Shown one piece after another: positions 3,181-49,860 of a stretch of DNA of 64,000 nucleotides. The stretch's first letter is position 1. Every line of letters begins with the position of its first letter. The translations under genes and the position numbers were made by a program. The DNA lies in contig NC_053112.1 of NCBI RefSeq assembly GCF_010015445.1, forward strand, positions 1,349,312 through 1,413,311, read 5' to 3'. The stretch is from Perca fluviatilis (taxonomy: Eukaryota; Chordata; Actinopteri; Perciformes; Percidae). The notes under the pieces were generated by a model. The model ran no database searches. It was not told the origin of the DNA and worked only from the letters and a program-made list of their open reading frames with translations.

Positions 3181-4734
3181 CTATTCATCTATTGGAGTCA
3201 CTTTGACACATTACATGGAAGCTACTGAAAAAAAGAGGAAATTATATTTCATAAGAATTCATGTCTGAAAAGGGCTTTAGTAGCAATGCAGACTTGATAT
3301 GCTGTGGATGGGAAAACAAATATTTCTTACCTTTAAATCTTTCGACAAGGTCTGGCACTCTGTCAAAGTGTTAATGACAAAGCTATCCATTGATCTGAAA
3401 CAAACACAAAAAGAGCTTAAGCAAAGATACAATTGCTATTGTATTAACTATTCGGATATCACCATGTAAAAGCAATGCAGACTAACAGAAGAATGTAATC
3501 CAATGTGAAGATAACAGCCATTTTATTTAGCATCACAATCCTCCCTCTCTACCTATACAATTCATATGAGAAATTGCATGCATGTAAATTGTTTTTATAT
3601 GAATGCAATTCATATTTGAATATTTGTGGCTGCTCACAGCATAGCCTTCAGGGCACGACTGTCAGTACAACAGTCTACAGCAGTGGTTCCCAAACTTTTT
3701 ATTATATATTTCTTAACCGTTAACTCAAGTGGCCCTTGGCCCCGCCATTTTAAATAAGCATTTGTTCGTATCTATTGTGGGTCACCACATTACTTAAATA
3801 AATGCACATACATGCATTTAGTCAGACATATCAGGTTATCTCACTGTTTTTACATACTTTAATCAGTCAAACACTGTGTTATGCTTTCACATTTCACATT
3901 AAAAGCTTCAGGAAAAACTAGTGCATTCATTTATAGCCAGTTAAAATAATATAGCTAGCAAAGCAACTAACGGACAGCCTGTTGGCTAGTAAACTATCTA
4001 GCTAGCTAGCTAGATAGTTAACTGGCGAATCACCTGGCTAGCTTGAAACTAGCTGGCAAATTAGCCTGGTGAACTCAATAAACATGACCATATGCCCATG
4101 GGCATTATGAACTTGTTTCATTAATTCATTAATATAATTCAGACCAAACGGATAAGCTGTAGGCTATCCATGCTTCCATGATAACGGCTAAATGGCTAGC
4201 TACGTTGTTAGCCAAACTAACCAACTAGCCTCACAATATAAAAGATAGTACTTTAATAGGTAACGCAACACAGACAATGTGAATTAGACATGTAGCTAGT
4301 GTACACAAACCTTTTATTTATTTGCCTCGTTGGATGACCAGACAGAGAACCAGGTTCTCTGCTGTGACAAGCGCTCGGTGTGCGGACTCTGGTGATGATC
4401 TGATGACGTTCGAAGCACAAACAACCCAAGTGCTGGGTCAACTGATGTATGTTGGGTTGATGGATTTTGACTCAACGCATGAGTTGCACAAAATAACCCA
4501 ACTTCCATATAAATAACCCATAATGGGTAAAACATTTCATAACCCAGCGGTTGGGTAGATGAAATAACCCAGCATTTTTTAGGGTGTGTGTTAAAGTTTT
4601 TTCGTTTCCCTACATAGAAAAAGCATGAAGGAGAGCATGTCTCCGATGTGACAAGGAGACGTCGGATTTCTTGGGTGGCTGCAATTAGAAGAAAGGACTT
4701 TTCTCTGGTCCAGCATAGAGACACCACACTGACT

Positions 4735-8490: not shown

Positions 8491-9004
8491 AATTTAAACT
8501 CTGAACATTTCTTGAGAGGTGACAGCCTTCCTCATGTCCGAGCATGTCTCCATGACTTCCTGCTAGTGTAGACCACTAACTGGTGTTGTGACACAGAACG
8601 ACCACTAGATGGATCACAACACAAAGGAATGATGAGACAACGTTACTGTACTGCTGCCACGCTAAGCACCAACCACTCCTGATACATGAGAGTGAACACA
8701 CTGTCGGTCTAGTACAGAATAATCACTCATGATGGACGAGGACACAACCAACAACCTCACATATGTTTTCCTTCAGGAGGAGACACCATCTCCTCCATCT
8801 TCACCAGTTGATAAAGAGAAAATCTACTGGTTTCAAGAACTTTCTGGAAGTCTCATTTTCTTGATTCTCGTCTTGTTTTAACACAGAAGTTTATTTCTGA
8901 AAAATCACTGAAAGAAAGAAATCTGGTGAACTGGTAGAAGTAGAATTAACTCACATGTTGTGTTCCTCTTTGGAGAAATAAACTCAGTTGCCAGTTTATT
9001 AGGT

Positions 9005-9103
9005 AGGTCTGTTGTGTAGGACTAGATGTTAATATCCCTAAATTATTCATACTTGAGGCACCGATGAGACTCCGTGGGATGCTCAGTTGAGTGATGGCAC
9101 CCT
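9005..9103. repeat. 99-bp direct repeat flanking the LINE (3' side)
   Basis: This is identical to 12856-12954 except for one substitution (CTCAGTTGAG versus CTCAATTGAG). It begins AGGTCTGTTGTGTAGG and ends GATGGCACCCT. It is either an unusually long target duplication or a copy of the element's own 3' end left at the 5' junction. Confidence 0.95.
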
Positions 9104-9221
9104 TTGGGTTGTCAAGTGGGCGCCCTCCTTCTTTGGTGTTTCGCTGATAGGCCCACGACACCTCCAGAGGGTTCAGCAGTGAGTCCCAGCGTCCCAGGTT
9201 CACTCCCTAGATGCCATCAAC

Positions 9222-12200
9222 TCACTTGAAAGCCCAGGCGGAGTCCTTTCTTTTCATCCACAGCCACTGGCTCCCCTTTTCAGCAGCCTTGGAGAGGTCT
9301 TTGATTGCCTGTCGATGGGCCTTCCCTCGCACTCCCATCTCCCTGAGTAGCCTAGATGTTGAGGTGGCTACGAACCCTCTGCAACCTACTTCCACTGGGT
9401 GTACCTTCGCATTCCAGCCCTGTTGTTGTGCATCGGCTGCAAGTTCTGCGTACCTCAGCCTTTTCCGTTCATAGGCCTCCTCCATTGCACCCTCCCAGGG
9501 CACGGTGAGCTCGATGATGTAGACAAGCTTCAACGAGGCTGACCACAGAACAAGGTCTGGTCGCAGGTTGGTAGCTGCAATCTCAGCTGGGAAGCAGAGT
9601 TTCTTATCCAGGTCTGCCAGCAGCTTCCAGTCGCGTGCTCTGCTCAGCCTCCCAGTGTCTGGTCTTACGGTAGTGAGGCTGCCTTTACTCTCACCCTCCC
9701 GGACAAATGCTGTTGGCTGCCACTGAGATGACGGGGGAGGAAGGGCATTCACACCTGTCCGTCGGCTTTCCAGCACTGCTGCAAGACACTTTAACACCTG
9801 GTTGTGCCGCCAGGTGTAACGGCCTTGGGTGAGACTGGTCTTACATCCCACTAAGATGTGCTTCAGTGTTGCTAGACTTGGACACAGAGGGCATGTGGGG
9901 TCTTCGGCATACCACTGGCTTAGGTTTGCAGGAGAAGGCAGGACATCGTAGACAGCCCTGATGGTAAAGCTTGCCCTGAATGCCTCCATCTCCCACAATT
10001 CACTCCAGGAGATCTTCCTCTTTTCCACTCCTTTCCATGCCATCCACTGCCCTTGCTTTACCTGTGCCACAGCTTGAGCACACCTTCTTGCTTCCTCCTC
10101 CCGACGTACCTCCTGGACCACAAGCTTGCGTCTTTGAAATGGAGAAGCCTTATGCCACACTGGTGTACTGGCACCCAGGCCAAAACCACTCCTCCCCTCC
10201 TGCACTCGCCCCACGATGTCCCTGTGTCTGAGTGCTGCTTTTGCCTGCTCAGTTGCAGCCAATGGAGTCCATTTCCTCCCAGTAGCCAGGATGGGAGCAG
10301 CTTGGGCTACAAATGGATCACTCGAATCCAGTAGCATCATCTCCAGTCTGACTTTGGCGCACTTGTACTCCTCTGCCAGGCTGGAAATGGGGAGATGTAA
10401 CATCCCTTTGCCATAGAGCCCAATGCTGCTGAGGCACCTGGGAAGGCCAAGCCACTTCCTTACATATGAACTAACCAGTCTCTCCAGCTTTTCCACCTTT
10501 GAGAGCGGGACTTCATAGAGGGTTAGCGGCCACAGGAGACGTGGGAGTAGTCCATACTGCATGCACCAGAGCTTCAGCTTGCCAGGAAGCAGGGTTCTGT
10601 CGATGTTCTCCAGGCCGCTGGTTACTTCCCTCCTGAGCTGCTCTACTTGCTCTTTGTCTTTAAGGGAGGCATCATACCACCGACCTAGGCTCTTCACAGG
10701 CTTCTCGGAGACCGTTGGAATGGGTTCCTCGCCAATATGGAAGCGGTGCTCTGACAGTTTCCCCTTGACAATGGAGATGCTTCTGGACTTGCTCGGCTTG
10801 ATCTTCATGCGGGCCCGTTCAATGTTTTCCTGTAGCTTTCTTAGTAGCCGTACAGTGCAAACCTTGGTCGTGGTTAAAGTTGTGAGGTCGTCCATGTAGG
10901 CTCTGAGCGGTGGCAGCCTCAGCCCAGGTCTTATTCGCTGTCCGCCAACCGTCCATCGCGAGGCCCGGATAATGACCTCCATGGCCATGGTAAAGGCCAA
11001 CGGAGAGATGGTACAGCCGGCCATGATTCCCACCTCCAGGTGTTGCCATGCTGTCGTGTACTCTGCTGTTGTCACGCAGAGTTGGACATCCTCAAAATAG
11101 GCTTTAACAAGGGTTGTGAGAGCTGCTGGAACTCTGAAGTAGTCAAAGGCTGTCCACAGGAGGGTGTGAGGCACTGAACCAAAAGCGTTCGCGAGATCCA
11201 GGAATACCACGTGAAGATCTGTTCCCTCCTTTTTGGCGACCTGGATCTGATGCCAGATGACACTAGCGTGTTCTACACAACCAGAAAAGCCTGAGATGCC
11301 TGCTTTCTGAATTGACGTGTCAATCAGGTTGTTTCTTTGCAGGTATTCTGCCAATCTGTGAGCGACCACACTGAAGAAGATTTTTCCCTCGACGTTTAGA
11401 AGGCTGATCTGGCGGAACTGCCCAATCACTGATGAGCCCTTTTCCTTGGGGATAAGAATCCCTCCGGCTCTCCGCCAGGACGTTGGTATTTCCTTCTTTT
11501 GCCACACGACTCTCATCAATCTCCAGAGGAATCGCAGGACATCAGGTGCGTTTTTGTAGAGCCTGTATGGAACACCGTTAGGACCTGGAGATGATGCGCC
11601 CTTGCTCTACGCAAGATTTGTTCTAACTCACTCCATCTGGGTAGACTGATATCAGTTTGTGCTCTGGTGTGGATTGGCTGGTGGCATGTCAGGAGGGAGC
11701 GTAACTTCTTCCTGGTGTCTATCATCTGTGCAGGAATTTTTTAGATGTTCTTCCAGGTCAGCCTTAGATACCAAGAGACTTCCACTCTTCTCCTTTGCGA
11801 AGAGACTCTTCACAAATTTGAAGGGATCTTTATAAAAGCGTGATCTTGTTTGCTCCTTCCTTCTGTGCTTCCTCAGAAGGTTTTCAGCTCTCCTCAGTGT
11901 TACAAGCCTGCTCTGAATCTCTTCCTGCAGCAGGTTTATGCCACCCTTCTCTTCCTCTGAGGCCTTCCTCCATTGCTTTTTCAGCTGTCTCCTCTCCTTG
12001 ACTAGGCGATCTATTTCTATCTGCCTTCCGATTTTGTGGGGATTGACGGAGTAGCTTTTTTTTTTCGACGACCACTCCGAACTGTTCCACCCCATAGGCA
12101 TAGATAAGATCGCCCATTCTTTCCAACTTCTTCATGGTTGCGCCTCTGATCCCTTCCAGTATGTTGCAGAGATCAGTGTTGACCTCCTTCCACAGCGTTT

Positions 12201-12585
12201 TGTCGCAGGCCTTTGGCCACCGGACCAAGGGCCTTCGCCCTCGGATCTTCTTCTCTGCTGTTTGACGTGATGGGTTGGATTCGGTTGCTTCCCTGTGCCT
12301 TGTTCTTCCTCCTCTGGGGCAGGGGTGTCGATGTCCTGCAGACTGTGGTGTGTGTCCTGCTGCTGAACTTCTGGCGACTGACTCGACCTGCTTCTCAGAA
12401 AGTAGCTGTCGATGCGACTTCCCCTGTTGCCCCTTCTTTAGGCATCCTTTCTTGCCCTGATGTATTTTCAGGCCTAGGGTAGAAGTAACCTTTGTCCAGC
12501 CACATATGCAGTTCTGGAGCTTACGTCCTGCTGTAGCTGTCGGAGCCTCAGGTAGGCTGATCATCAATCTCGTAGTCTGTTCCAT
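9222..12585 (-). pseudogene. LINE ORF: zinc finger, reverse transcriptase, REL endonuclease (frameshifted)
   Basis: The protein begins near 12585 (MEQTTRL) with a C-x-C...H...C finger (CICGW, KIHQGKKGC). The reverse transcriptase follows in a 765-residue frame (11519-9222), with the RT core FLDLANAFGSVPH, the motif GIMAGCTISPLAF and the catalytic YMDD. Near the C-terminus are a CCHC knuckle (CPLC, HILVGC) and an endonuclease segment with RPDLVLW and IIELTVPWE, matching the PD-(D/E)xK layout of R2-like elements. At least three frameshifts break one ancestral ORF: at the poly-A run near 12057-12066, near 11680 and near 11605. The RT and endonuclease portion alone is uninterrupted. The element is therefore probably immobile, though the long open frame suggests a fairly recent insertion. 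Confidence 0.9.
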
Positions 12586-12855
12586 TCCTGTGTTCGTACC
12601 GGGTTGTCTGCCGACGAGCCATCTTCGCCGCCTCTCGCTGGCTCAAGGGGTATTTTCTTCTTATGACTTTTCGTAGTACTTTGTGGGTGGGACCCATACA
12701 CCTCTCGTGCTGGATCCCGCCGCCACGGGTAGCTAGCCCATGGCAGCCCCGTTGAGGTCTATTCCCTCATGCCAGCTGTCTTTCCATGCTGTCATAAAGA
12801 CTTTCCCTTGTTGTCAGCTGCCCTTTCACAGCAGTCACTGGTTCACCAGATGATC

Positions 12856-18278: not shown

Positions 18279-19394
18279 ATGGCTGCTGCAAACTATCTGC
18301 AATCTGAAGATCAGTTTCTGTGCTCCATCTGTCTGGATGTGTTCACTGATCCTGTCACCATACCATGTGGTCACAACTTCTGCAAAAACTGCATCACTGA
18401 ACACTGGGATACTAGTAGCAGGTGCCTTTGTCCCATGTGTAAGGAGGGTTTTATCACAAGACCTGATTTGAGGGTCAACACTTTGTTCTCTGAGATGGTT
18501 GCTCAGTTCAGACGGTCAGCTCAACAGAAAGCCAGCAGCAGCAGCTCAAAGCAACAAGTGTTTAAACCAGGAAAAGTTCCCTGTGACGTCTGCACTGGAA
18601 CCAAACTGAAGGCCCTGAAGTCGTGCCTGGTGTGTATGGTCTCCTACTGTGTGACTCACTTGGAGCCTCATCTGACAATGTCAGGCCTGAAAAGACATCA
18701 GCTGATCGACCCTGTGGAGAACCTGGAAGGTAGAATGTGTACGAAGCATGATAAACCTCTGGAGCTGTTCTGTAAGACCGACCAGACATGTGTCTGCATG
18801 CTCTGTACTGTTTTAGAGCACAAGATGCACGATGTTGTTCCTCTGAAAGAAGGATATGAAGAAAAGACGGTAGAGCTGGGGAAGATAGGAGCTGAAATTG
18901 AGCAGATGATCCAGAAGAGACGACTGAAGATTCAGGAGGTCAAACACTCAGTTGACGTCAGTGAGAAAGATGCAGACAGAGAGATAGTAAAAGGTGTTCA
19001 GGTCTTCACTTCTCTGAAGGAGTTTGTTGAGAGAGGCCTGAATGAGCTCATCAACACTATCACAGAGAAGCAGAAAACAACAGAAAAACAGGCCGAGGCT
19101 TTCATCAAAGAGCTGGAACAGGAAATCTCTGAGCTGATGAAGAGAAGCACTGAGGTGGAGCAGGTGTTACGCTCTGAAGACCACCTCCATCTTCTCCAGA
19201 GTGTCCAGTCCCTAAACATCCAACAACCTCCACTCACCAAAGACTGGACAGAGGTCAGCGTCCGTCCATCATCATATGAGGGGACTGTGGTGAAAGCTGT
19301 GGATCAGCTAGAGAAGACAGTCAGTAAAGAGATGAAGAAGTATCTCGAAGCCGAGCTAACGAGGGTCCTGATACAGCGCATCCTAAACAAGTGA
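18279..19394 (+). CDS. Bloodthirsty-like TRIM protein, RING/B-box/coiled coil, truncated (unit 1)
   Basis: A 371-residue frame starts at the ATG at 18279, two bases after a good acceptor (pyrimidine tract then GTGTAG, 18276). An earlier in-frame ATG at 18246 lies inside that tract and is rejected. The RING is C3HC4: C15, C18, C30, H32, C35, C38, C51, C54. B-box1 uses C102, C105, C116, C119, C124, H127. B-box2 uses C154, H157, C165, D168, C173, C176, H181, H184. A coiled coil spans roughly 185-300. Family knowledge: such proteins are E3 ubiquitin ligases of innate immunity, usually about 550 residues with a C-terminal PRY/SPRY. Here the frame leaves the family after EAELTRV because of deletions in PRY. 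It is either a pseudogene or an SPRY-less TRIM product. Confidence 0.85.
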   Translation: MAAANYLQSEDQFLCSICLDVFTDPVTIPCGHNFCKNCITEHWDTSSRCLCPMCKEGFITRPDLRVNTLFSEMVAQFRRSAQQKASSSSSKQQVFKPGKVPCDVCTGTKLKALKSCLVCMVSYCVTHLEPHLTMSGLKRHQLIDPVENLEGRMCTKHDKPLELFCKTDQTCVCMLCTVLEHKMHDVVPLKEGYEEKTVELGKIGAEIEQMIQKRRLKIQEVKHSVDVSEKDADREIVKGVQVFTSLKEFVERGLNELINTITEKQKTTEKQAEAFIKELEQEISELMKRSTEVEQVLRSEDHLHLLQSVQSLNIQQPPLTKDWTEVSVRPSSYEGTVVKAVDQLEKTVSKEMKKYLEAELTRVLIQRILNK

Positions 19395-19877
19395 ATCTTG
19401 GTGAAGTGAGGAAGAACCTCCCAGACAACCCAGAGAGATTTTGTAATTGTGTTAGTGTTTTAGGAAAACAGAGTTCTCTTCAGGCAGATTTTGCTTTGAG
19501 GTTCAAGTTAAAGGAAAGACTAAATGGGACTTAGGAGTGGCCAGAGAGTCGATTGACAGGAAAGAGAACATCCCATTGAGTTCTGAGGATGGGTACTGGA
19601 CGATATGGTTTGGAAAGTATGGTATGGAAAGGAGTACAAAGCTCTAGCAGGCCCTCCAGTGTGTCTCTCTTTGAAGTCTCAGCCTCAAAAGCTGGGGTTG
19701 TTTGTGGATTATGAGGAGGGTCTGGTCTCCTTTTATGACGTAGATGCTGCAGCTCTTATCTACTACTTTACTGGCTGCTCCTTCACTGAGAAACTCTTCC
19801 CATACTTCGGTCCCTGTAATAATGATGGTGGTAAAAACTCTGCCCCTCTGGTCATCTCTCCTGTCAGACTAAACTAA
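19395..19877 (+). pseudogene. Out-of-frame PRY/SPRY (B30.2) remnant of unit 1
   Basis: Compared with units 2 and 3, about 30 bp encoding the start of PRY and about 23 bp of the ILSDDGK region are missing near 19355-19385, so the remaining B30.2 is out of frame with the TRIM. Further indels occur near 19470 (the FSSGRF region) and near 19610. The last portion (19605-19877) is open and retains LFVDYEEGLVSFYDV and the family C-terminus ISPVRLN. A polyadenylation signal AATAAA follows at 19912-19917. Confidence 0.85.
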
Positions 19878-24303: not shown

Positions 24304-25067
24304 CCACTTCAAGACCATTCTTACCAGCAGTGTTCCAAATTTGCGACAGTTAATAAAAACATTTGAATATTGGTGCCAGATCAAGTGCATATACAGAAGC
24401 TAGAGTCTGCAGTTTGAGCTCCACCAGACCACCCGAGGTCTCCTGTCTTGTTTCCCCAGCTGCTGAGTGGAGTGACAAGGGTTAGCTCTGCAGACTACAG
24501 ACCCGCCTCCCCCTCTGCTGTCCGACCACAGCCTAAGCTACTGCAAGCTATTTTAATGAGTTTCTTTTTAGCTAAATACTCTGAGTAAATGTAATTCCCT
24601 CTGATAAACAGTGTAGCAAATGTCAAGAGCTCTTATTCTGAAAGGTAAGAACAGAAAGTGTCTCTGGTAAACGCCGCCTTTGTCAAAGTTGAAAGCAACA
24701 TTTGGACAGCAGCCTCTGTGTTGTTCTAATATGATCCTCATAAATAAACGACACAACATGATTGGTTATGATGCTTATATTCGCAGTGTAAACTCAGAAA
24801 AACTGACCATGTTCCATTCCATTCGAGTTGCATGAAAGTATTCATGACGAAAACAACAGTTATAAAAAAAATACTGATTATTAATAGCACGAAAAAAACT
24901 TTCCCAGTGTGTAAAGACCTTAACTCATGGGTACAGTGTTTGATTATCCCAGAAATGCACAGCGACGATGACCAGCAGCCCATCAGTACCCCCGACATGC
25001 AGAAGTGTGCGAGGGCCTGTTCACTGCAGCTTAAATTAAAACTGTAATTTGAATATAATTTTTTTCT

Positions 25068-25310
25068 GCTAATTATCTGTCATCTGAAGATCATTTTCTG
25101 TGCTCCATCTGTCAGGATGTGTTCACTGATCATGTCACCATACCATGAGGTCACAACTTCTGCAAGAACTGCATCACCAATCACTGGAATATTAATGACC
25201 GGTGCCAGTGTCCCTTATGTAAATAGGCCTTTACCACCAGACCTGATTTGAGAGTCAACACTTTAATCTCTGAGATGGTTGCTCAGTTCAGACAGTCAGC
25301 AATACAGAAG
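25068..25310 (+). pseudogene. Dead RING exon of unit 2
   Basis: This is clearly homologous to 18288-18530 of unit 1. The pyrimidine tract, splice acceptor and ATG present in unit 1 (about 18250-18281) are deleted here, so AATTTTTTT runs directly into GCTAATTATCTG. The RING reading frame has stops at the zinc-binding Cys (CCATGAGGTC instead of CCATGTGGTC) and after CPLCK (AAATAG). Similarity ends at CAATACAGAAG, where the sequence shared with the PYD region of unit 3 (43198) begins. The flank at 24880-25060 is also homologous to 18090-18240. Confidence 0.85.
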
Positions 25311-25931
25311 AGTTGTTGCAGAGCTTTTACTTTTAACATAACGTTATAACGTATAGCGTTAACTGTAACTTAACGTTAAGAGCAACGTTAACGACCAATA
25401 ACGTGGCTAGCAAAATTACCGACTCCCCGTTGCAGCAGCAGCTGCCGTGAGGTCAGAGTCTAGCGGATCAGGGTCTGGCTCTGCTTTGCGTTTTCCTGCA
25501 GTTTGTTTCCTTGCTATTATGTTAAAAAACGCAGCAGTATCCCACCACGGGACACTGTTGTTACATCACTCTGACAGTCAATACTCGGGGTGACCTCGCC
25601 GTTCATTGTAACATTTGCAGTTTTTCTTTCAAATACTCTCTATTTTTTCAACTGCCCAAATCCGTCCAAAATTCATTTTCATCGTACCCGACCCTTTTAT
25701 TATTGGCCCCGGGACGACGGGAGGTCCTGAAGCTCGAGCCCTGGTATCACGTCAATGAGCCACTTCAAAATGACATTAGGTCCAGCCCACAGAGCAGCAG
25801 CAGGAGCTCTAACTGACTAAACTACACATGAATCAGATCAACACAGCTCCTGTGTTGGCCAATGAGAGCTTCTGCATTACATTTGTGTTTCAGTTTTCTT
25901 TCAGTTTGACAAAACTTTCTGATTTTAGCAG

Positions 25932-26211
25932 GAAGCCACGATGACGGCAGTGGACCTTTTTAACACTTTGGAGGATTTAAAACAAGAGGAATTTAAGAAA
26001 TTCAAATGGTGTCTGCAGCAAGACATCCTGAAAGGCTACCAAAGCATCAAAGTGTCCATGTTGGAGATTGCAGAAAGGCAGGACACGGTGGATGTGATGG
26101 TGAAAACCTATAAACTTCAAGGAGCTCTGAAGGTGACCAAGAAGGTTTTAGAGATGATCAACAGGAATGATCTGGTGCAGAGACTGCCAGACACCAGCTC
26201 AGGACCAGAAG
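25932..26211 (+). CDS. Pyrin domain (PYD) exon of unit 2
   Basis: The coding part starts at the ATG at 25941 and gives 90 codons plus one base. The acceptor is TTTCTGATTTTAGCAG (exon starts 25932) and the donor follows CCAGAAG at 26212 (GTCAGT). The product is a typical fish PYD: DLFNTLEDLKQEEFKKFKW, RQDTVDVMVKTY and GALKVTKKVLEMINRNDLV. These match the layout of the six-helix death-fold domain that recruits ASC or similar adaptors (family knowledge). The exon ends in phase 1 and joins in frame to the B-box exon at 27783, giving PE-V-TAAASN. Reading past the donor gives a weak 37-residue extension that I treat as intron. Confidence 0.85.
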
Positions 26212-27782
26212 GTCAGTCTCCCTTTTTAATTTGTATTTTCAGGAAGAAAGAGTGGGTGGACATGAGAAACAAAATACTTGTAAGGGAACAAGATTGTAAA
26301 CAGATAAAAAAAACTATTTTATAGTTTAAAAAAAACCATTAACATTTATGTCCGTGTAGTCTCTGTTTGTTGTAATATTACTGTAGTGGAATTTCAAGCT
26401 CAAACTCTGTAAGTTGAGTTAGTGGTACCCAGGTCTCATTCAGGTTAGTGGCCAATATAACCTCATAACCTTTCCAGGTGGACAAGTACTTCAGCTCTGT
26501 GTCTAACAGTAACACCTGTATGATAAGACTGCCAAGGTCACGGAGGAAGTCAACACATAACACATTCTGTCAGTCTGTTTTAGGCACCCATCTTTCAGGT
26601 TTTTATAAAGTTCAGCTAAACCTAATGTCTCCAGCATGAGTTTAAATAAACCTTCAGGAAGACAGGAACTTCCGAATGTTGGGATGGCAATAACACTGTA
26701 ATGTGTAATCCTAAATTCTCCTCAATTGAGAAGTCATTAAATACTTCTGTGCAAGTAATCAAAGTCTCCCCGAACCTCCTTCCCGAATGGGAAAGGAGTT
26801 GTACTGCTCCTGAATTTTTCTTTAACAGTTTTGTTTGTATACATATAAATGTGTTTGAAATAAAATGGGTACAAACCAGGGGTTAAAATGGGTCGGAACG
26901 ATCCGGAATGACGTTCCGGCACCTTGGATTATTGCCAGTTTCATACAATCGGTGTTTCCCATCCGTTTAAAATAACGCCAAATATCCATTCCAGCACACC
27001 GCTGTGAGTCCATGAACAAGGTAAGTGTCTGTGGTGAGTTCACACTGTAATAAAAGCAGGACAGTCACGTACTATCTGTCAGTTAAACAGGTGAATATCA
27101 TGTTGCCGGTAGCCTACCGGTTACAAATAGGCTTGTTATCGACACGGTAACGTGTTGATAATACTTAGATGTAGATGTGTCCCTCTTAAAAAATACAAAA
27201 GTCCCAGTCCCTAAAGATGTAAAAAATAATAATATATCCTTCTCACTTGAGCTGTCGCCGGTTATACCCAACCCAGTCTCACAGCAGATTGTGAAATGGT
27301 CACATTATTCACCCCGGAGGCCGGGCGTTTTGTTTCCCCATTAACCGTCCCGTTATTGTCGAGCATCCACCGCATCCGTGTCCCGAGGTATGAGGCGTCC
27401 TCCCCCGGGGTGTGACGTTTGCTTTCCCCGTTAATCTCCGTATAAACCATGTTGTGCTGGGTACCACGAAAAAAAAGAGAAAAATGTCCCTGTGAACATG
27501 AATCAATAGATAAAAAATAACGTGACCCTTTAAAGAACTGCTGTGAGACTGTGTTGTTATACATGATGTGTAGGTGAACTAGCTGTTACCAAGATGTTAG
27601 GGTTCCCCCACCTGCCAGGTCCCACTAAACCCCTGGTACAAACGCAATAACAACTTTAAACCAATGCAGTGGTCAGTGCGCCTATCCAAGTGTCCAAAGG
27701 ATAAACTACACATAATAAAATAAAAATAAAAATAATAAAAATGTTCTTTTTATTACATTTTTTTCTTTCATACTGCATGTAG
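26212..27782 (+). other. Intron of unit 2 between PYD and B-box exons
   Basis: The intron opens GTCAGTCTCC and closes TTTCTTTCATACTGCATGTAG. Its first 450 bp match 43861-44470 of unit 3 and its last 200 bp match 48750-49111, so both genes keep the same ancestral intron ends. The middle contains the MITE at 27262-27560 and unremarkable sequence. Confidence 0.6.
27262..27560. mobile_element. MITE related to 7807-8490
   Basis: The inverted ends are CAGTCTCACAGCAG, with GTTATAC-like flanks on both sides. The interior shares TCAATAGATAAAAAATAACG and a GTGAACATG block with the larger MITE. It lies in the intron between the PYD and B-box exons of unit 2 and is absent at the equivalent place in unit 3 (about 48750). 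Confidence 0.7.
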
Positions 27783-29183
27783 TTACGGCTGCTGCCAGCA
27801 ATGTGCCATCTGAAGAAGTGTCCAAACCAGGAGAAGTTCCCTGTGATGTCTGCATTGGAACCAAACTGAAGGCCCTGAAGTCCTGCCTGGTGTGTCTGGT
27901 CTCCTACTGTGAGACTCACCTGGAGCCTCATCTGACAGCTCCACGTCTGAAAAGACATCATCTGATCGACCCTGTGGAGAACCTGGAAGGCAGGATGTGT
28001 ACGAAGCACGATAAACCTCAGGAGCTGTTCTGTAAGACCGACCTGACGTGTCTGCACGTTCTGCCCTGGTATAGACCACAAAATGCATGATGTTGTTCCT
28101 CTGAAAGATGGATATGAAGGAAAGAAGGCTGAGCTGTGGAAGACAGGGGCTGAAATTCAGCAGATGATCCAGGAGAGACGACTGAAGATTCAGGAGATCA
28201 AACACTCAGTCGACCTTAGTGAGGAAGATGCAGAAAGAGAGATAGCAGAAGGTGTTCAGGTCTTCACTGCTCTGAAGGAGTCTGTTGAGAGAGGCCTGAA
28301 TGAGCTCATCAACACGATCAAAGAGAAGCAGAAAACAACAGAAAAACAGGCCGAAACTTTCATCAACGAGCTGGAAAAGGAAATCTCTGAGATGATGAAG
28401 AGAAGCACTGAGGTGGAGCAGGTCTTACGCTCTGAAAACCACCTCCATTTTCTCCAGAGTGTCCAGTCCCTAAACATCCAACAACCTCCACCCACCAAGG
28501 ACTGGACAGAAGTCAGCGTTCGTCCATTATATGAGGGGGCTGTGGTGAAAGCTATGGTTCAGCTGGAGGAGACACTCAGTAAACAGATGAAGAAGCGGCT
28601 CGCTGAGTCCGAGCTGAAGAGGGTCCAGCAGTATACAGTGGATGTGACTCTTGATCCTGATACAGCATATCCCTATCTCATCCTGTCTGATGATGGGAAA
28701 AAAGTGAATCACGGTGATGTGTGGAAGAATCTGCCAGACCACCGAAAGAGATTTTCTAACGATTCTTGTGTTTTAGGAAAGCAGAGTTTCTCTTCAGGCA
28801 GATTTTACTTTGAGGTTCAAGTTAAAGGAAAGACTGATTGGGATTTAGGAGTGGCCAGAGATTCAATTGACAGGAACGGAATCATCATACTCAGCCCTCA
28901 AAAAGGTTTCTGGACTATATGGTTGAGGAATGGGATTAAGTACGAAGCTAATGCTGGTCCTCCAGTCCTTCTCTCTCTGAAGTCTTCTCCTCAGAAGGTG
29001 GGGGTGTTTGTGGATTATGAGGAGGGTCTGGTCTCCTTTTATGACGTAGATGCTGCAGCTCTTATCTACTCCTTTACTGGCTGCTCCTTCACTGAGAAAC
29101 TCTTCCCATACTTCAGTCCCAGTAGTAATGACGATGGTAAAAACTCTGCCCCTCTGATCATCTCTCCTGTCAGACTAAACTAA
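27783..29183 (+). pseudogene. B-box/coiled-coil/PRY-SPRY exon of unit 2, one 2-bp frameshift
   Basis: The acceptor is CTGCATGTAG (27782). The exon starts TTACGGCTGCTGCC, so the ancestral TRIM start ATG is now ACG and translation depends on the upstream PYD exon. The RING part is absent. B-box1 is intact (PCDVC, SCLVC, YCETH). B-box2 starts (CTKHDKPQELFCKTD) but loses two bases near 28047 (ACATGTGTC in unit 1, ACGTGTC here), giving a stop at 28088. The predicted product is then a 192-residue PYD-B-box1 protein. The other frame is open from within B-box2 to 29183: coiled coil, then PRY (VDVTLDPDTAYP) and SPRY (SFSSGRFYFEVQVKG, VFVDYEEGLVSFYDV) to ISPVRLN. Apart from this one lesion the architecture is PYD-B-box-coiled coil-B30.2, as in pyrin. 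It may be a recent pseudogene or an assembly error. Confidence 0.82.
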
Positions 29184-41242: not shown

Positions 41243-42255
41243 CAGCAAAGGAGTCTTTTAATCCTGACGTACAGACAGTAAAAACACATCCAGGGGTTTC
41301 TGAAGGGACAAGTTGAAACTTGCAGTTTGTCTCTGTCAGTCACTGGTGCCGGATAATCCTAATTTGGGCAAAAATGGCATGGCTAGCGTGTGACAATACT
41401 GCCACATAAAAACTTCAGTCAAGAATCTGGCAAAATGACAGCTGGCAAACGGAGGGTTGTCACAGTCAAGATCAGATGCTCCTGCCATTGTGCCCTTAGG
41501 CCTCCGGGTACTGGTGCCATTTATCTGCATGTACGGCAGTACAGAAAATGGGCAGACTTTCCCTTAAATTACCAGCTATTGCCAGCTAGCTAGCTTGGTT
41601 TGCAAGGTGCAACAAAAGACATGTTAAATAACACAATAACACAATGTTATTTAAACACAAGTTTAAATAACTTAAAGTTATGGAAATGGTGAAAAGGGCA
41701 GAGTATTTTTCTAAATGAGTCGGCAAGCTAACAGCAAAGCCTAATTATACTTTATTGTTATCAAACTAAGAGAAATGTTCTCATCTCATCCTAAATTGGT
41801 CATAAACCTATTCCAAATGCAATGAATGAAATGCAGAGGAGGAAAAGTGCCCTTCTCCTCAAAATCATCTTGAGTTAATGTTAATTTATTTGTAAATTAG
41901 AACTTAAACGCTGAGAAACGATCTCATTTATGGGTCAGTATCGCTCTCTCACTTTGCTCGCCCAGGCTCACAGCGTAACGTCTCACGTGACAACCACAGG
42001 ACTGTTCTTTCTTAAGAACAAGTTGGCCCTTTTGGGGGCCCTATGCAAAAGAAAAACAAGTTTTACACAGGGCCTCCAAAAAGCTAGGAACGGCCCTGCT
42101 AGCTGGTGTTTCTAATAATTGGAGGAGCTGCTGGACAAGATGCACCTGTCATGGGCCGATGCGTAGCGTGTTGCCGAGCATTAAATATAATAGAGAGATC
42201 TCTTTGCAGCCTTCTATCCCACAGGGGATGAAGAAGAGAAAGTAAGTAACGTTAA

Positions 42256-43166
42256 AGTGATGGTTCGGAGTAATTTACCCTAGGGTCCTTTGCACCATGA
42301 CCTCGAGCCAAACACCCCCCCAGAAGCTTTTTTCACCTGGGTCTAACATTGGGCGAGTTAGCGTAGAGTAGCGTTAGCCGCTGAATGACGACATAGCATG
42401 GGACCACGTTTGTATCTCTTAACTGACCCCTACTAATTGCCCGAAATGATACCAAAGGTCTACACTAGTACAAATATATAGGTTATGCACTCCTAAAACG
42501 ATGGATTGGAAAGTTTGTAAGTACACCAGAAGTTTATGAACACTTGCCTGCTCTATTCTGCTCTCTGTTGCTGCTGCTGCTGCTACCTGCAGTTAGACGA
42601 GTGCTTAGGGCTGTCTACAAATTACTACCGAAAAGAGATACAACAAAAATATGTATTAATTTAATGATTAAATAAGGTAATGTCTCCAAACTTACCTCAA
42701 TTATTACTTGTCTCCTGCTAGTTATATTACAGCACTTACTTTAAAAAATAAGTTAAATTAAAAAAATTTTTTGTTGCATCTCTTTTCGGTGTTGTAATTT
42801 GTAGACGTCCCTAAGCACTCATCTCACAGCAGCAACAACAACAGCAGAGAGCAGAAGCCAGCAGGCAAGTGTTATTTACATAAACTTCTGGTGTACTTAC
42901 AAACTTTCCAATCTTCATCGTTTTATGAGTGCATAACCTATATATACTAGTGTAGACCTTTGGTATACTTTCGGCGATTATTAGTGGGGTCATTTAAGAG
43001 ATACAAACGTGGGTCCATTAGCCCCGCGCTAAGCTATTCAGCGGCTAACGCTACTCTACGCTAACTCGGCCAATGTTAGACCCAGGTGAAAAAAGCTTCT
43101 GGGGGGGTGTTTGGCTCGAGGTCATGGTGCAAAGGACCCTAGGGTAAATTACTCCGAACCATCACT
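42256..43166. mobile_element. Giant foldback element with TTAA target duplication
   Basis: The arms of about 390 bp (42256-42645 and about 42775-43166) are near-perfect inverted copies, joined by about 130 bp of A/T-rich loop. TTAA flanks both sides (42252-42255 and 43167-43170), as for piggyBac or Kolobok elements. The ends begin AGTGATGGTTCGGAGTAATT. It lies upstream of the PYD exon of unit 3. Confidence 0.88.
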
Positions 43167-43580
43167 TTAAGTGTTAACGTCAGTGACATGATTTAAGCTG
43201 TTGCAGAGTTTTGACTCTAAACATAACGTTAAAACATTATTGTCAGCAGAGGCATGGGAAGACATTTTCGGTAGGGGGTGCTGGGATGCTGGGAGTTGGG
43301 GGGGTCCACGATCCACGGTCCACGGCCCATGTTGAGTCTAAACAAACTACGTTACACAGGCTCTGTGTATATATGTATCTGCCAGTATTCTGCTCCTTCA
43401 CAACCGCGTCTGAGTGCAGGGCACTGATCGGTGTGCGGTGTGATTCAGCACAGCAACTTTGTTCACAGCTTCTGGGTGGAAGGATGACTTCTCGTGAATT
43501 TCTATGTGGCTATATGCCAATTCTGCTACATTTGTGTTTCAGTTTTCTTTCAGTTTGACAAAATTTTCTGATTTTAGCAG

Positions 43581-43860
43581 GAAGCCTCGATGACGGCATT
43601 GGACCTTTTCAACACTTTAGAGGATTTAAAAGAAGAGGAATTTAAGAAATTCAAATGGTGTCTGCAGCAAGACATCCTGGACGGCTACCAAAGCATCAAA
43701 GTGTCCAAGTTGGAGAACGCAGAAAGGCAGGACACGGTGGATGTGATGGTGAAAACCTATAAACATCAAGGAGCTCTGAAGGTGAGCAAGAAGGTTTTAG
43801 AGGAGATCAACAGGAATGATCTGGTGCAGAGACTGCCAGACACCATCTCAGGACCACAAG
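43581..43860 (+). CDS. Pyrin domain exon of unit 3 (first coding exon of PYD-B30.2 gene)
   Basis: The acceptor is TTTCTGATTTTAGCAG; the ATG is at 43590; there are 90 codons plus one base, then the donor GTCAGT (43861). The residues follow the PYD pattern: DLFNTLEDLKEEEFKKFKW, RQDTVDVMVKTY, GALKVSKKVLEEINRNDLV. It is nearly the same as the unit 2 PYD, with differences concentrated in single residues. Phase 1 matches the acceptor at 49111, giving PQ-V-MAAAS. Joined, 271 + 749 nt make one uninterrupted 340-codon frame (339 aa plus stop). The GTCAGT donor is weaker than GTAAGT but conserved in both units. PYDs act in inflammasome-type assemblies in the cytosol (family knowledge); the role of this product is inference. 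Confidence 0.85.
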
Positions 43861-44599
43861 GTCAGTCACCCTTTTTCATTTCTATTTTCAGGAAGAAAGA
43901 GTGGGTGGACATGAGAAACACAATACTTGTAAGGAAACAGATTGTTATTTGTGACCTGCTAATACAACTTGTGCACTCGGCAGCAACATATTCTCCAGCT
44001 GTAAACGACGCCATGAATCATTTAAGATTGTAAACAGATAAAAAACTATTTTATAGAGAAAAAAAAACATTAACATTCATTTCAGTGTAGTCTATTTGTT
44101 GTAACATTACTGTAGTGGAATTTCAAGCTCATGCTCTGTAAATTGAGATAGTGTTACCCAGGTCTCATTCAGGTCAGTGGCTAATATAACCTTTCCAGGT
44201 GGAGAAGTACTTCCACTCTGTGTCTCTAACGTAACAGCTGTATGATAAGACTGCCAAGGTCACAGAGAAAGTCAACACATAACACATTCTGCCTGTCTGT
44301 TTTAGGCGCCCGTAATATCTTTCAGGTTTTTATAAGGTTCAGCTAAACCTAATGCCTCCAGCATGAGTTTAAATAAACCTTCAGGAAGACAGGAACTTCA
44401 GATGGTTGGGATGGCACCTACACTGTACTGTGTAATCCTAAATGCTCCTCAATTGAGAATTCATTAAAAGGATATTTCACCACTGGAAAGATGAATATGT
44501 ATTAAATTGTGTCATTGATGTAGTAGAAATGTGAAACTCCCAGAATGCACTTGCTTCGCTTCCCTACGAGTCCACTCCCAAGCCATGCCTACAGGTTAC

Positions 44600-45420
44600 A
44601 GACATTTAATTCAGTGCATGTGGGTCGTCGGACAAACGGCTGCGGCCCATAGACCCAAAAAGAACAATTTTGCTCTCATCAGTCCACAGAATTCTCCTTT
44701 GACCAGTCAATGTGTCCTTTGGCAAATTTCAACCTATTCAGTACATGTCTTTTTTTCAGCAATGGGACTTTGCGGGGGCTTCTAGCTGATAGCTTTGCTT
44801 CACATACACACAGGTAACTTTAAGTCTTCTTTGATTTTCCTGGAGCTGATCATTGGTTGAGCCTTTGCCATTTTGGCTTTTCTTCGATCCATTCGAATGG
44901 TAGTTGACCATTTTTTCCCACGTCATTCAGACTTTGGATGCCATTTCAAGGCATTTGAAATCATTTTGGCTGAGCAGCCTATAGATTTTGCACTTCTTTA
45001 AATGTTTTCCCCTCTCCAATCCACTTTTTAATCAAAGTCTGCTGTTCCTCAGAGCAATGACTGGAATGACCCATTTTGCTGAGTATTTCAGTGTGAAATG
45101 CACTATAACCAGCATGCACAATATTTGCTTCCTTCCTTCCTTAAATATGGGCCATAATTGATGCCTGCATCTTCACAGAATCAATCACCTCACTAAGTGA
45201 ACACAACACTGCTATTATTTTGAACATGCCCCTTTCAATTACAGATTCAATTACACAGAATGAGCAGCATGCATGTCATGACTGTTGAGTCTGTTGGTTT
45301 TCTATGACTCTACAACACTTACTAGTAAATTATTTGCCATGTAGAAATATCACTTCTACCAAAAAATTTGATTTATGAGGTTGTTGTTGTTGGACTGCTA
45401 TTATTTTGAACACAACTGTT
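44600..45420 (-). pseudogene. Tc1/mariner-like transposon remnant
   Basis: On the minus strand the right terminus reads AACAGTTGTGTTCAAAATAA and is followed by decayed transposase: MGHSSHCSEEQQ...KKWIGEGKTFKEVQN, and later RLKFAKGHIDWSKENSVD, a form of the DDE region with in-frame stops where WTDES would lie. The left terminus is missing. It lies in the intron of unit 3. Confidence 0.7.
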
Positions 45421-46019
45421 AATAATAATAGCACATAAAAATAGATGTTAGTTGTTTCTTTTAAGCATGTGATGAGGTAAAATGTCCAGTTTGGGACATA
45501 ATAACTTAGCGGAGTAAAAACTATTCTGCCCTAGCAATTGTGTCCTTAACAGATAGCTTACTTGAATACGAATGTAGCTCCAGTAACGTTAGGACGAAGA
45601 TCTGTTATTCCATAGTCATTCATTTTCCATTCATTGTTAGTCATTTTCAGTGTAAAACTAAAGGAAATAAAAAAGGCATACAGTTACTATGTATGAAATT
45701 ACTGTATGTCATTATTACTTAATTTAAACAGCTGTTCATGTTCAAGGCTCTGAACGTAAGAAACAACCTAGTTGCTGACAACTTCTCTTTTTCCTCGCTT
45801 CACTGTCATGGATAATAATCCATAACAAGCCATATTTGTTGAAAATTTCAGAAGCTCACAGATTTATTGACTCAAAAGTTAAACGTTATCCATAAATATC
45901 AAAATCATTCAAATAGAAATGATGTTGCCCAAGCTCAATGGGAAATTGTTGCCCAGCAACATTGCCCAAAAAGTTGCGATATATCAACATCTTTCCTGTC
46001 AGAAGGCTAAAGTTACCAC

Positions 46020-46300
46020 ATTGTAAATCTAGCATTACTAATCAGATAAACTTAACCCCTTGATGAGGTGAGTGGTTTTGGTCCTTCCAGTGGAATATTT
46101 TTTGGCGATGGCAGAATCAGGGAACATACCTGCCAAACTCGCAGTGAAGTCGTCACAAAACACAAAAGGATTTTTTTTCTGTGCTACAAACATTGCCATC
46201 TGGAGTTCAGCTTGCATCACGTTTTCTGCCTCTGTCTGTCCTTTCGTGTTGAAGGATGAAATCTCCTGTGTGCCCCTTATGTACTGGGTGGCCGGGAAGT
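46020..46300 (-). pseudogene. hAT-like transposase N-terminal fragment
   Basis: An open minus-strand frame contains EAENVMQAELQMAMFVAQKK and GMFPDSAIAKKYSTGRTKTT. This matches a conserved block of fish hAT-related transposases in which MFPDS.IA..Y.CGRTKT is typical (recalled, not searched). The frame ends where the foldback element at about 46285 begins. The remainder of the gene is not present. Confidence 0.55.
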
Positions 46301-46325
46301 GCAATGCAACATTACAAAGAATGAA

Positions 46326-46612
46326 ACACTTTTACATTTTGGAAAACAAATTTACATTTTGGAAAACAAATTTACATTTTGGAAAACAAAATAACATTTT
46401 GGAAAACAAATTTACATTTTGGAAAACAAAATAACATTTTAGAAAACAAATTTACATTTTGGAAAACAAAATAACATTTTAGAAAACAAATTTACATTTT
46501 AGAAAACAAATTTACATTTTGGAAAACAAATTTACATTTTGGAAAACAAAATAACATTTTAGAAAACAAATTTACATTTTCGAAAACAAATTTACATTTT
46601 AGAAAACAAATT
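46326..46612. repeat. About 21-bp minisatellite, left arm
   Basis: Around 14 tandem copies of TTTTGGAAAACAAATTTACA with minor variants (AATAACATTTTAG). The inverse array occupies about 47640-47985. Confidence 0.9.
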
Positions 46613-46756
46613 AACAAGATGCAAAACACTTTTACCAGTCCCGAAACAAATTTACAAATGACAGAATCTTCACGGAAAGGGGAATGTACCACATACCGGA
46701 AGTGATGAGGTGTTGTTGGTGAGCGCAGTCAATTTGTGTTGTTGTGAGGAGTATAT

Positions 46757-47081
46757 GGCGTGAATGAAGTTTATGGTGACTTTACGCGTGGTCGGTGTTT
46801 GGAGTTTTTATATGGCGACGGACCTGACGGAAACACAGGGAACGTACGACGACAGCGCGGGCGGATCGAAGCTACAGCAGGGGGCAGCTGAGTCCGTCTG
46901 CAGCTGCAGGACCTGGAGCTCACTGTCCATTCCTGGGAGCCAAAACCGACACCCCCCAGCTGGAGACCCAGGCCGTATTGCTGGGCCCGCTGGAGGGAAG
47001 GGAAGCCCGGGAGAATCAGATCCAGGACTGAACGGAGCGGACTGTCACAGCCTGCTGAAGTTTAAATCACAGGTTTCCTAA
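46757..47081 (+). pseudogene. GC-rich gene-like fragment in foldback core
   Basis: From the ATG at about 46812, a frame reads MATDLTETQGTYDD and then SKLQQGAAES. After a one-base shift another frame reads RLQLQDLELTVHS, and a further shift gives TPQLETQAVLLGPLEGREA. The Leu/Gln/Glu-rich pattern looks like real coding sequence broken by indels, probably coiled coil. I do not recognise the gene. It may be a captured host first exon. Confidence 0.35.
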
Positions 47082-48298
47082 AGGGAGTCTGCCGGGACTC
47101 GGACTGTGGACGACGAAACACGACTTAAAGTCTCGTTAAATAAATAAATACATGCAGAAATAAATGAATCATTAGTGGGGGAGTGAGCCTGGACATTTCA
47201 GTCTGTTTAAACTTCACTTTGAAGCAGAACCTCTTAGTTCAGAAGGGTGAAGTTTCCGTTTGTACTCATATCTGTGAACTGATTATAATAAATATTCTTT
47301 GTATTAACACATTAATTAGTCTCTTTGTCTTTTTGTTTAAAAAAACTAGAACATCGCATGAGATTTTGACGGATTATAGTGATTTTATTTCCGTTAGACC
47401 TTTGCCTACATTGACGCTGATGCATTAAGGACGCCCATAGACAGTATATAAGGCGTGCCTCCTCGTGTTTCAAGATGGCGGCTCTATTGACGTATTCGAC
47501 CCATAACTGCCGTAGTCAAGGCGACATGTATACAAAACCTTCATCACTTCCGGTATGTGGTACATTCCCTTCCGTGAAGAATCTGTCATTTGTAAATTTG
47601 TTTCGGGACTGGTAAAAGTGTTTTGCATCTTGTTAATTTGTTTTCGAAAATGTAAATTTGTTTTCTAAAATGTTATTTTGTTTTCCAAAATGTAATTTGT
47701 AAATTTTTTCTAAAATGTAAATTTGTTTCGAAAATGTTATTTTGTTTTCCAAATGTAAATTTGTTTTCTAAAATGTTATTTTGTTTTCCAAAATGTAAAT
47801 TTGTTTTCTAAAATGTTATTTTGTTTTCCAAAATGTAAATTTGTTTTCCAAAATGTAAATTTGTTTTTTTAAAATGTTATTTTGTTTTCCAAAATGTAAA
47901 TTTGTTTTCCAAAATGTAAATTTGTTTTCCAAAATGTAAATTTGTTTTCCAAAATGTAAATTTGTTTTCCAAAATGTAAAAGTGTTTCATTCTTTGTAAT
48001 GTTGCATTGCACTTCCGGCCACCGTACTTTATGTGCCTCTTCTGCTCGATGGTGCCACTGTGTTTTAATGTGCTGGGTAATATAATTTTTCCCGCTGTGC
48101 GCTACGTTAAAATCAATGCAACACACCTTGACAAAAAGCATGGAGGTTGTTGATATGACTAGGTAAGATGCATGTGAATTGTTGCGCCCAACACTGTTGA
48201 AATTTACAGTTATATTTTGATTTCTTTGCGGGAACACCGCCTTCACCTTTCGGGTCTGAACTTTCCGCGAAGCTTGCGCAGAGATCAACTGATCAACT

Positions 48299-48368
48299 GG
48301 GTTACAGGTTGCCAGGTTGAGGGTTACAGGTTGCCAGGTTCAGGGTTATAGGTTGCCAGGTTGAGGTG
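48299..48368. repeat. About 22-bp tandem repeat, three copies
   Basis: GGGTTACAGGTTGCCAGGTT recurs three times, followed by TGA or CA variants. It lies between the foldback and the conserved intron segment of unit 3. Confidence 0.9.
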
Positions 48369-48749
48369 ACAAACAGGTTGAACATTGTATATGGTGTGTG
48401 GATTGTGTGAATAGGATGCGTTTCATACAAGCTCTGGCAACTGGTCAACATTACACAAACATATTGGTCCGATTATTTATAAAGGAGTTTGGGCCATACA
48501 AATTACGGGAGTTTCCTGGGAGAAATAAACCGGGAGGCGTCCAGGAGATAGGGCTAAAAAGGTATAGCAGGTATAGCAGCTATGGTATAGTCGGATATTC
48601 GGATCCAGCCTTACTTCTTTCTAGTTAATATGTTTTCCATCGATTTTGACAAGAAATTAAGTGTTGACGCTAAAAACGTTTTGGGGAAGACCCCCAGACA
48701 CCCAGGTTAAAATGTTTTCACAAAACCTACAGTCTTGGTAACAGGTGAA

Positions 48750-49111
48750 CTAGCTGTTACCAACATGTTAGGGTTCCCCCACCTGCCAGGTCCCACTTAA
48801 CCCTGGTACAAACAGAATAAAAACTTTAAACCAATGGATTGCTCAGTGCGCCTATCCAAGTGTCCAAAGGATAATCTACACATTTATTACACGAAACATT
48901 TTGACCATGAAAGTCTAAATTGTGTGGCCTTTGTCCCATTATAATGACACTATTCCATCATATACACTTAGCCACACACACACGCACACACACACACACA
49001 CACATACACACGGCTCCATAACGCCCACAAATGCACACATTTCTTTTTAAACAAATAATAAAAATTGTCTTTTTAATTACATGTGTTTTTTTTCTCTCAC
49101 ACTGCTTGTAG
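48750..49111 (+). other. 3' part of unit 3 intron, conserved with unit 2
   Basis: GGTGAACTAGCTGTTACCAA and GCCTATCCAAGTGTCCAAAG match 27565-27700 of unit 2. A short (CA)n run is at 48974-49010. The intron ends in a strong pyrimidine tract and AG at 49110-49111. Confidence 0.6.
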
Positions 49112-49860
49112 TTATGGCTGCTGCCAGCAATGTGCCATCTGAAGAAGTGTCCAAGCCAGGAGAAGTTCCCTCTGACGTCAGCACTGGAACCAAACTGAAA
49201 GCCCGGAAGTCCTTCCTGGTGAGTCTGGTCTCCTGCTTTGGAACTCAGCAGATCAATCCTGTGGAGACCCTGGAAGGCAGGATGTCTGAGCTGAAGAGGG
49301 TCCAGCAGTATGCAGTGGATGTGACTCTTGATCCTGATACAGCACACCCTAAACTCATCCTGTCTGATGATGGGAAAGAAGTGAATGAGAGTGATGTGAG
49401 GAAGAATCTCCCAGACAACCCAAAGAGATTTTCTCTTTACTGTATTGTTTTAGGAAAACAGAGTTTTTCTTCAGGCAGATTTTATTTTGAGGTTAAAGTT
49501 AAAGGAAAGAGTAATTGGGATTTAGGAGTGGCCAGAGAGTCGATCGACAGGAAGGGAAGAATCACAACGAGCCCTCGGTATGGTAACTGGACTCTATTGT
49601 TGAGAAATAGAAATGAGTACATAGCTGCTGCTGACCCTCAAGTCCGTCTCTCTCTGAAGTATTCTCCTAAGAAGGTGGGGGTGTTTGTCGATTATGAGGA
49701 GGGTCTGGTCTCCTTTTATGATGTAGATGCTGCAGCTCTTATCTACTCTTTTACTGGCTGCTCCTTCACTGAGAACCTCTTCCCATACTTCTGCCCCTGT
49801 AATAATGATCGTGGTAAAAACTCTGCTCCTTTGATCATCTCTCCTGTCAGAGTAAACTAA
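49112..49860 (+). CDS. PRY/SPRY (B30.2) exon of unit 3 with degenerate B-box
   Basis: The acceptor follows a pyrimidine tract (ACTGCTTGTAG, 49111). The exon has 748 coding bases plus the split first codon, ending with TAA at 49858-49860. Residues 92-150 of the joined protein derive from the TRIM B-box1 region, but all zinc ligands are gone: S111, S114, F125, S128, F133 and Q136 replace Cys, Cys, Cys, Cys, Cys and His. B-box2 and the coiled coil are removed by an in-frame deletion (EGRM then SELKRVQQY). PRY begins VDVTLDPDTAHP, and SPRY contains [25 protein letters not shown] and VFVDYEEGLVSFYDV, ending ISPVRVN. B30.2 domains are ligand-binding modules in TRIMs, pyrin and fish NLRs (family knowledge). 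No internal lesion was found. Used alone, the ATG at 49114 would give 248 aa. Confidence 0.87.

Follow-up and report, generated by a model that had tools for sequence, protein, structure and literature searches.

A compact two-exon PYD-B30.2 gene model, apparently a deletion derivative, in a tandem PYD-TRIM array of Perca fluviatilis

PYDs join other PYDs, and B30.2 domains bind a target, mostly a protein. Mammalian pyrin (MEFV/TRIM20) carries a PYD at its N-terminus and a B30.2 domain at its C-terminus. The same two ends are found in the gene model described here, a compact PYD-B30.2 gene that we call copy 3 and that lies in a 64,000-nucleotide stretch of Perca fluviatilis DNA (the window; positions 1349312-1413311 of contig C1 in a 951 Mb genome). 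Copy 3 differs from pyrin in having no B-box or coiled coil, in the absence of pyrin's long phospho-serine linker, and in its two coding exons, against the ten that we take MEFV to have. AIM2 is similar in length to the copy 3 protein. Like copy 3, it joins a PYD to one ligand-binding domain, HIN in its case, which binds DNA according to an excerpt of a review. B30.2 is unrelated to HIN. As for the parts of pyrin that copy 3 does without, a review excerpt (PMC6698799) states that the B-box and coiled coil bind PSTPIP1 and may aid oligomerization, while calling the B30.2 domain's role debated.

A passage of Howe et al. (2016; PMC4852459) has pyrin originate at the root of the tetrapods, through recombination between NLR and TRIM genes. 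It also describes groups of teleost NLR-B30.2 proteins that join PYD and B30.2 in one protein; these differ from copy 3 by FISNA-NACHT and leucine-rich repeats between the two ends. In the available part of Boudinot et al. (2011; PMC3137616), trim20 is listed for pufferfish and not for zebrafish, and zebrafish btr31 is described as a bloodthirsty-type (btr) TRIM with expressed sequence tag support that has lost B-boxes and coiled coil and kept a C-terminal B30.2. An excerpt of a carp TRIM survey (PMC10048487) reports a clade with TRIM20 homologs in which PYRIN replaces RING, the species being unstated in that passage. As far as these excerpts go, a fish TRIM20 of some form has already been published, and the btr family offers a precedent for losing B-box and coiled coil. 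Where btr31 has a RING and a transmembrane segment, copy 3 has a PYD instead; no strong transmembrane segment was found in copy 3 (best Kyte-Doolittle 19-residue mean 0.78). Literature searches covering few subscription journals gave no paper on the joined PYD-B30.2 form under four compound names (PYD-SPRY, PYD-B30.2 and the like). Our analysis suggests that copy 3 is probably a two-exon gene of a tandem family combining PYD with btr-type TRIM exons, and that in-frame loss of the middle domains left it encoding a 339-residue PYD-linker-B30.2 protein that would act as a sensor or a decoy.

Both coding exons of copy 3 lie on the plus strand. The coding part of exon 1 (43590-43860, 271 nt) encodes the PYD, ends in phase 1 and runs into the donor AAG/GTCAGT (slash, exon border). 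Exon 2 (49112-49860, 749 nt, stop at 49858-49860) encodes a remnant of B-box 1 followed by PRY and SPRY; its acceptor reads ...CACTGCTTGTAG/TTATGGCT, with a pyrimidine tract before the exon start at 49112. When joined, the exons form 1020 nt of a single open frame, 339 residues plus stop. The initial annotation of this DNA had predicted that a PYD exon and a PRY/SPRY exon would make one frame of 340 codons, and this was borne out, the 340 including the stop. Pfam matches on the joined protein, taken up to E 0.01, were PYRIN (PF02758, 81.1 bits, cut-off 22.9), PRY (PF13765, 76.7 bits, cut-off 27.5; residues 161-209, plus-strand positions 49321-49467) and SPRY (PF00622, 83.3 bits, cut-off 26.3; residues 213-327, plus-strand positions 49477-49821), with none for RING, B-box or coiled coil. 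The same annotation's claim that RING, functional B-box and coiled coil are lacking holds as well, the B-box 1 cysteines being gone and B-box 2 and the coiled coil deleted. Among PDB entries, the B30.2 domain was closest in sequence to TRIM21 (E 2e-54) and human pyrin 9r6y (E 9e-53) and 4cg4 (E 1e-52), the score for TRIM21 (187.8 bits) being slightly above that for pyrin (182.6 bits). Closest to the PYD were those of NLRP proteins (NLRP4, E 1e-7), with weak matches to the pyrin PYD 2mpc and the ASC PYD 2n1f (E 6e-4 each).

Copy 3 belongs to a large set. We found at least 147 matches to the PYD in the genome (150 of 180 candidates scored) and at least 151 to the exon-2 query (150 of 1053 candidates scored). 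Among the matches listed, those to exon 2 form a dense array on C1 at about 0.45-1.95 Mb and cluster again near 6 Mb of the same contig and on C8, and 12 PYD exons lie in the C1 array between 592938 and 1954674. The gene content of the genome, with bloodthirsty-type TRIM exons and many FISNA exons, fits a teleost. Ten array PYD loci (L numbers denote loci outside the window) and two PYD loci in the window were fetched for comparison. PYD exons of the array loci are 81-89% identical in protein to the copy 3 PYD. Nine PYD and large-exon pairs were joined, and all nine have the donor AAG/GTCAGT; in eight the joined frame is open for more than 250 residues, with L009 and L016 ending early further on and copy 2 frameshifted. 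The pairing of PYD and B30.2 is not due to chance, because genome-wide matches to both are many and the donor recurs in nine of nine pairs. A RING heads the large exon in three pairs (L009, L015 and L016) and is missing from six (copy 2, copy 3, L011, L012/L030, L013/L031 and L014). Five of these six RING-less pairs are open from PYD to B30.2, over 339 (copy 3), 561, 521, 563 and 545 residues, and Pfam finds B-box, TRIM coiled coil, PRY and SPRY in the large exons of L011, L014, L030 and L031.

Consistent with the array PYD-TRIM plan, copy 3 has a phase 1 PYD exon, the shared donor, and an acceptor just before an ATG or its remnant. The prediction of plausible splice sites at both exon borders is thereby upheld, by the donor of the nine pairs and by an acceptor placed as in the paralogs. 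Its full-length neighbours L011, L014 and L013/L031 share exon structure, donor and acceptor place with it, and leader and intron ends are alignable to varying lengths; unlike copy 3, these neighbours have retained both coiled coil and B-box zinc fingers and reach 545-563 residues. Compared with the RING/B-box/coiled coil/B30.2 exon of TRIM class IV btr genes, of which the paralogs retain more, the copy 3 exon has only PRY-SPRY and the B-box remnant. The bloodthirsty label is our assumption, drawn from likeness in sequence and from the TRIM/B30.2 order of domains rather than from a tree. The window holds two further plus-strand paralogs. Copy 2 (25941-29183) has a PYD exon at 25941-26211 followed by a RING-less Bbox-CC-B30.2 exon (CC, coiled coil) with a frameshift near 28050, and copy 1 (18279-19877) is a RING-Bbox-CC-B30.2 large exon whose frame is broken in the PRY/SPRY part.

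The 5.25 kb intron (43861-49111, plus strand) is colinear at its ends with the intron of full-length paralogs and bears repeats in its middle. In blastn comparisons with L011, 43861-44468 is 91% identical to 2434-3048 and 48595-49111 is 82% identical to 3911-4447. Both intron ends are alignable in L009, L011, L014 and copy 2; in L010, L012, L013, L015, L016 and L017 the 5' part is. Since both ends align with paralogs, we conclude that PYD exon, intron and large exon were copied together as one gene. The middle of the copy 3 intron has no match to the introns of full-length paralogs. It includes a fold-back element with long inverted repeats (46287-48023, no strand assigned) whose ends are 99% identical over 104 nt in self blastn; the arms of this element hold many short tandem repeats.

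Alignment of exon 2 to L011, L014, L015 and copy 2 indicates how the middle domains may have been lost. Relative to L011, L014 and L015, copy 3 has a 42-nt in-frame deletion inside B-box 1 (deletion point 49244-49245, plus strand) and a 612-nt in-frame deletion that takes in B-box 2 and the coiled coil down to its end (49283-49284, plus strand), both lengths being multiples of 3. In the B-box 1 remnant (49147-49244, plus strand) and its surroundings, 11 substitutions in 96 nt hit all five cysteine codons, changing CDVC to SDVS, SCLVC to SFLVS and YC to CF. The stretch went from five cysteines to one, a tyrosine having become cysteine. We read the cysteine loss as probable adaptation of a peptide that no longer binds zinc, and on that reading the remnant itself would be translated. 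Copy 3 seems better described as a deletion derivative of the PYD-Bbox-CC-B30.2 family than as the minimal pyrin-like sensor of the initial annotation, whose two-exon model stands. As a gene model copy 3 is real; its splicing in vivo, its expression and a working protein are suppositions from sequence.

On the account we favor, a PYD exon placed upstream of a btr-type TRIM exon, often RING-less, would have given rise to pyrin-like PYD-Bbox-CC-B30.2 gene models; in one of them, B-box 2 and the coiled coil would have gone with the two in-frame deletions, and other residues would have replaced the cysteines of B-box 1, leaving the 339-residue PYD-linker-B30.2 product. This protein would most likely be infection-induced, monomeric and cytosolic. 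Its B30.2 domain, with variable loops, would bind a target, and its PYD would then meet ASC-type PYDs. Because B-box and coiled coil are gone, the target would have to supply the clustering, or else the protein would act on its siblings. Signalling might then occur only when many copies align on a repetitive target, like AIM2 on DNA; alternatively, copy 3 could be a decoy that competes with full-length paralogs. The role of "minimal pyrin-like sensor" given to it earlier is one that we infer at most. Since arrays of this sort evolve fast, we favor a clustered sensor or a decoy above a housekeeping role; copy 3 could be a decoy or a regulator, or else a young pseudogene.

The region 5' of the PYD exon bears on these choices. 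A conserved PYD-exon leader (43521-43589, plus strand) is 84-96% identical to array paralogs, and of the longer leader common to many paralogs copy 3 has only about the final 68 nt before the ATG, plus a short piece at 43196-43248 (plus strand). The latter is 90.6% identical over 53 nt to L014 388-440 and 85% identical over 40 nt to window positions 25311-25350; in these two paralogs such a flank comes after a broken RING relic. Further upstream lies a palindromic (inverted-repeat) element of about 0.9 kb (42246-43170, no strand assigned), 81% identical to its own reverse complement in blastn and also found in L013 at 8687-9602 (81% and 87%). The initial annotation had also proposed a TATA-containing upstream first exon. 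Because the TATA-like sequence near 43368 falls in a stretch unshared with the fetched paralogs, that exon is without paralog support; 43249-43520 matches no fetched paralog locus. The leader is T-rich with an AG at 43576-43577, and it could either serve as a short promoter or close an intron of the 5' untranslated region. On its minus strand, 43537-43556 reads AAACTGAAAGAAAACTGAAA, a doubled AACTGAAA. Nine of the 12 array PYD leaders carry this 20-mer without a mismatch, with none expected in shuffles of the window. We take it to be interferon-response-like, as a doubled element; the strict interferon-stimulated response element (ISRE) pattern fails there.

It is also conceivable, if rather unlikely, that copy 3 is a young pseudogene, that is, a full-length PYD-Bbox-CC-B30.2 gene with two deletions and an altered 5' region whose frame is open by chance. 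A series of observations fits such decay or otherwise counts against a functional gene. The copy 3 SPRY has ratios of nonsynonymous to synonymous rates (dN/dS) of 0.64-1.16 against 13 relatives, its PYD has dN equal to or above dS in nine of ten comparisons (L016 PYD excluded), and the corresponding pooled pN/pS of the set (L027 excluded) is 1.00 for SPRY, 0.82 for PYD and 0.59 for Bbox2-CC. Purifying selection on copy 3 is not visible at the level of residues, and substitutions are unsuppressed. Such rates near 1 are as expected for fast-evolving recognition genes, and also for decay; dN/dS was rejected as proof of function, being uninformative in a B30.2 set that runs near 1. Of the 12 private SPRY residues of copy 3, five occupy columns that do not vary among the other 12 paralogs (L027 again excluded), a count that was set aside as a test since it lies inside the paralog range of 0-6. 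A SPRY without stops has a probability of 0.20-0.36 by chance, so that a stop-free frame is a weak test and was rejected, taken alone, as a sign of function. Frameshifts disrupt the neighbouring copy 1 and copy 2, and among the matches listed a number of array exons have stops or short frames. The upstream region is rearranged with the palindromic element, and copy 3 lacks much of the 5' flank common to other PYD loci or has different sequence in its place. The strict ISRE pattern GAAANNGAAASY has two matches in the window, where 0.94 are expected, and none in the leader. Structure models (mean predicted local distance difference test score 64 for the PYD and 38 for exon 2, from alignments of 2 and 3 rows) were too poor and were left unused. 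Against decay stands the pattern of indels: 828 nt of PYD and SPRY coding sequence have 34 private substitutions and no private indel, whereas the flanking intron (899 nt) has 35 private substitutions and six private indels. Applied to the coding part, the intron rate predicts about 5.5 indels, a rough comparison that draws on two paralogs for the intron and five for the coding part and excludes the B-box remnant and the two deletions. No frameshift or stop occurs in the 1020 nt, both deletions are in frame, and copy 3 has the only unbroken frame among the three btr genes of the window. The cysteine codons were replaced far above random expectation (3-5 in 10,000 Monte Carlo trials of random stop-free substitution, varying with the transition rate), in a test that is post hoc, having been set up once the alignment had been seen, and that is weakened by the one cysteine gained.

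Separate use of the two exons is a quite improbable alternative. Exon 2 keeps its own ATG two bases past the acceptor and alone would encode a 248-residue B30.2 protein; the PYD frame extends to 44033 if the intron is retained, and the PYD exon could yield a PYD-only or differently spliced product, of the kind represented by the PYD-only regulators that exist in mammals. However, phase and splice sites are preserved in the joined pairs, and the exon-2 ATG is lost in two paralogs, as ACG in copy 2 and as CTG in L030, which stays wholly open through the acceptor; this is what a start of translation in the PYD exon would lead one to expect. We give scarcely any credence to the further idea that the PYD exon is part of an NLR-type gene (PYD-FISNA-NACHT) and lies near a TRIM exon by accident. 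Several PYDs elsewhere, among the matches listed, do have FISNA about 1 kb or less downstream (for example C2:7681946/7682741 and C18:34824075/34824905), but FISNA has no match in C1 0.45-1.95 Mb among the best 150 of 351 candidates, and PYD and TRIM exons are joined by a colinear intron in several paralogs.

Returning to copy 3 as a shortened member of a PYD-TRIM family, we compared RING content across the array. RING is absent from 6 of 10 plus-strand exons preceded by a PYD, against 6 of 47 that are not (Fisher p = 0.0035; p = 0.0068 before the correction of two assignments by hand), a test that overstates independence in that the genes are tandem relatives. The count covers 57 plus-strand exons at C1 0.45-1.92 Mb and was taken from maps (RING: 150 of 696 candidates scored). 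It excludes a second fragment at 806215 as well as the PYD at 1440623 with exon 1594403, 154 kb away from it. It includes the broken copy 1, and the truncated RING exon of L009 at 597225 was paired manually with the PYD at 592938. RING absence was read in the sequence for the six PYD-preceded exons and from the map only for the six without PYD, some of which are fragments. One RING deletion is common to L011, copy 2 and copy 3, and L014 lost its RING through another. RING pieces lie directly upstream of three PYD exons, at window positions 25065-25313 (two stops), L014 211-381 (one stop) and L012 992-1102 (cut short). These relics and the distinct L014 deletion suggest a likely history in which RING loss came after PYD arrival and was repeated: a PYD segment would have landed behind a RING start, after which the next exon lost its own RING, more than once.

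We advance only tentatively, at less than even confidence, a wider history in which pyrin-type genes arose in the btr array by PYD replacing RING, independently of tetrapod MEFV, and one of them shrank to an AIM2-like PYD-B30.2 form, purged of its zinc cysteines, as a ligand-clustered sensor or decoy. At least five open PYD/RING-less-TRIM models in one array would show recombination of the NLR-TRIM kind again, or earlier. The array would present varied stages at once, with RING present, RING lost, B-box lost and coiled coil lost. Since only the two ends are kept, copy 3 would be a natural test of the role of B-box and coiled coil in pyrin.

Other array genes have shed middle-domain sequence too: B-box segments are lost in frame in L030 (C1:770200-772000) and L024 (C1 near 790796). 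Two large exons per PYD exon occur at C1:914396 and 922993 and at C1:1144961 and 1149873, the second being without a RING match on the map; these pairs are possible alternative last exons. On another chromosome than the array, L001 (C23:4141248-4144475) has a PYD exon and, about 0.7 kb on, a frame with coiled coil and PRY-SPRY and no match to the B-box query, a further pyrin-like arrangement. L027 on C8, to which nearly the whole exon-2 query matched, was rejected as a second compact PYD-B30.2 exon, for it consists of a frameshifted RING, a hydrophobic stretch and B30.2. The C8 btr genes L027 (2981800-2984700), L028 (3106950-3108600) and L029 (2852700-2854150) have a hydrophobic, transmembrane-like stretch between RING and B30.2, at the position of B-box 1. 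They resemble zebrafish btr31 as described in the excerpt cited above. Alignment by eye with the hydrophobic strand of the B-box 1 zinc finger suggests that this stretch may have evolved from it. In the window, long open frames on the minus strand at 9222-12642 look by eye like a reverse transcriptase of the long interspersed nuclear element type.

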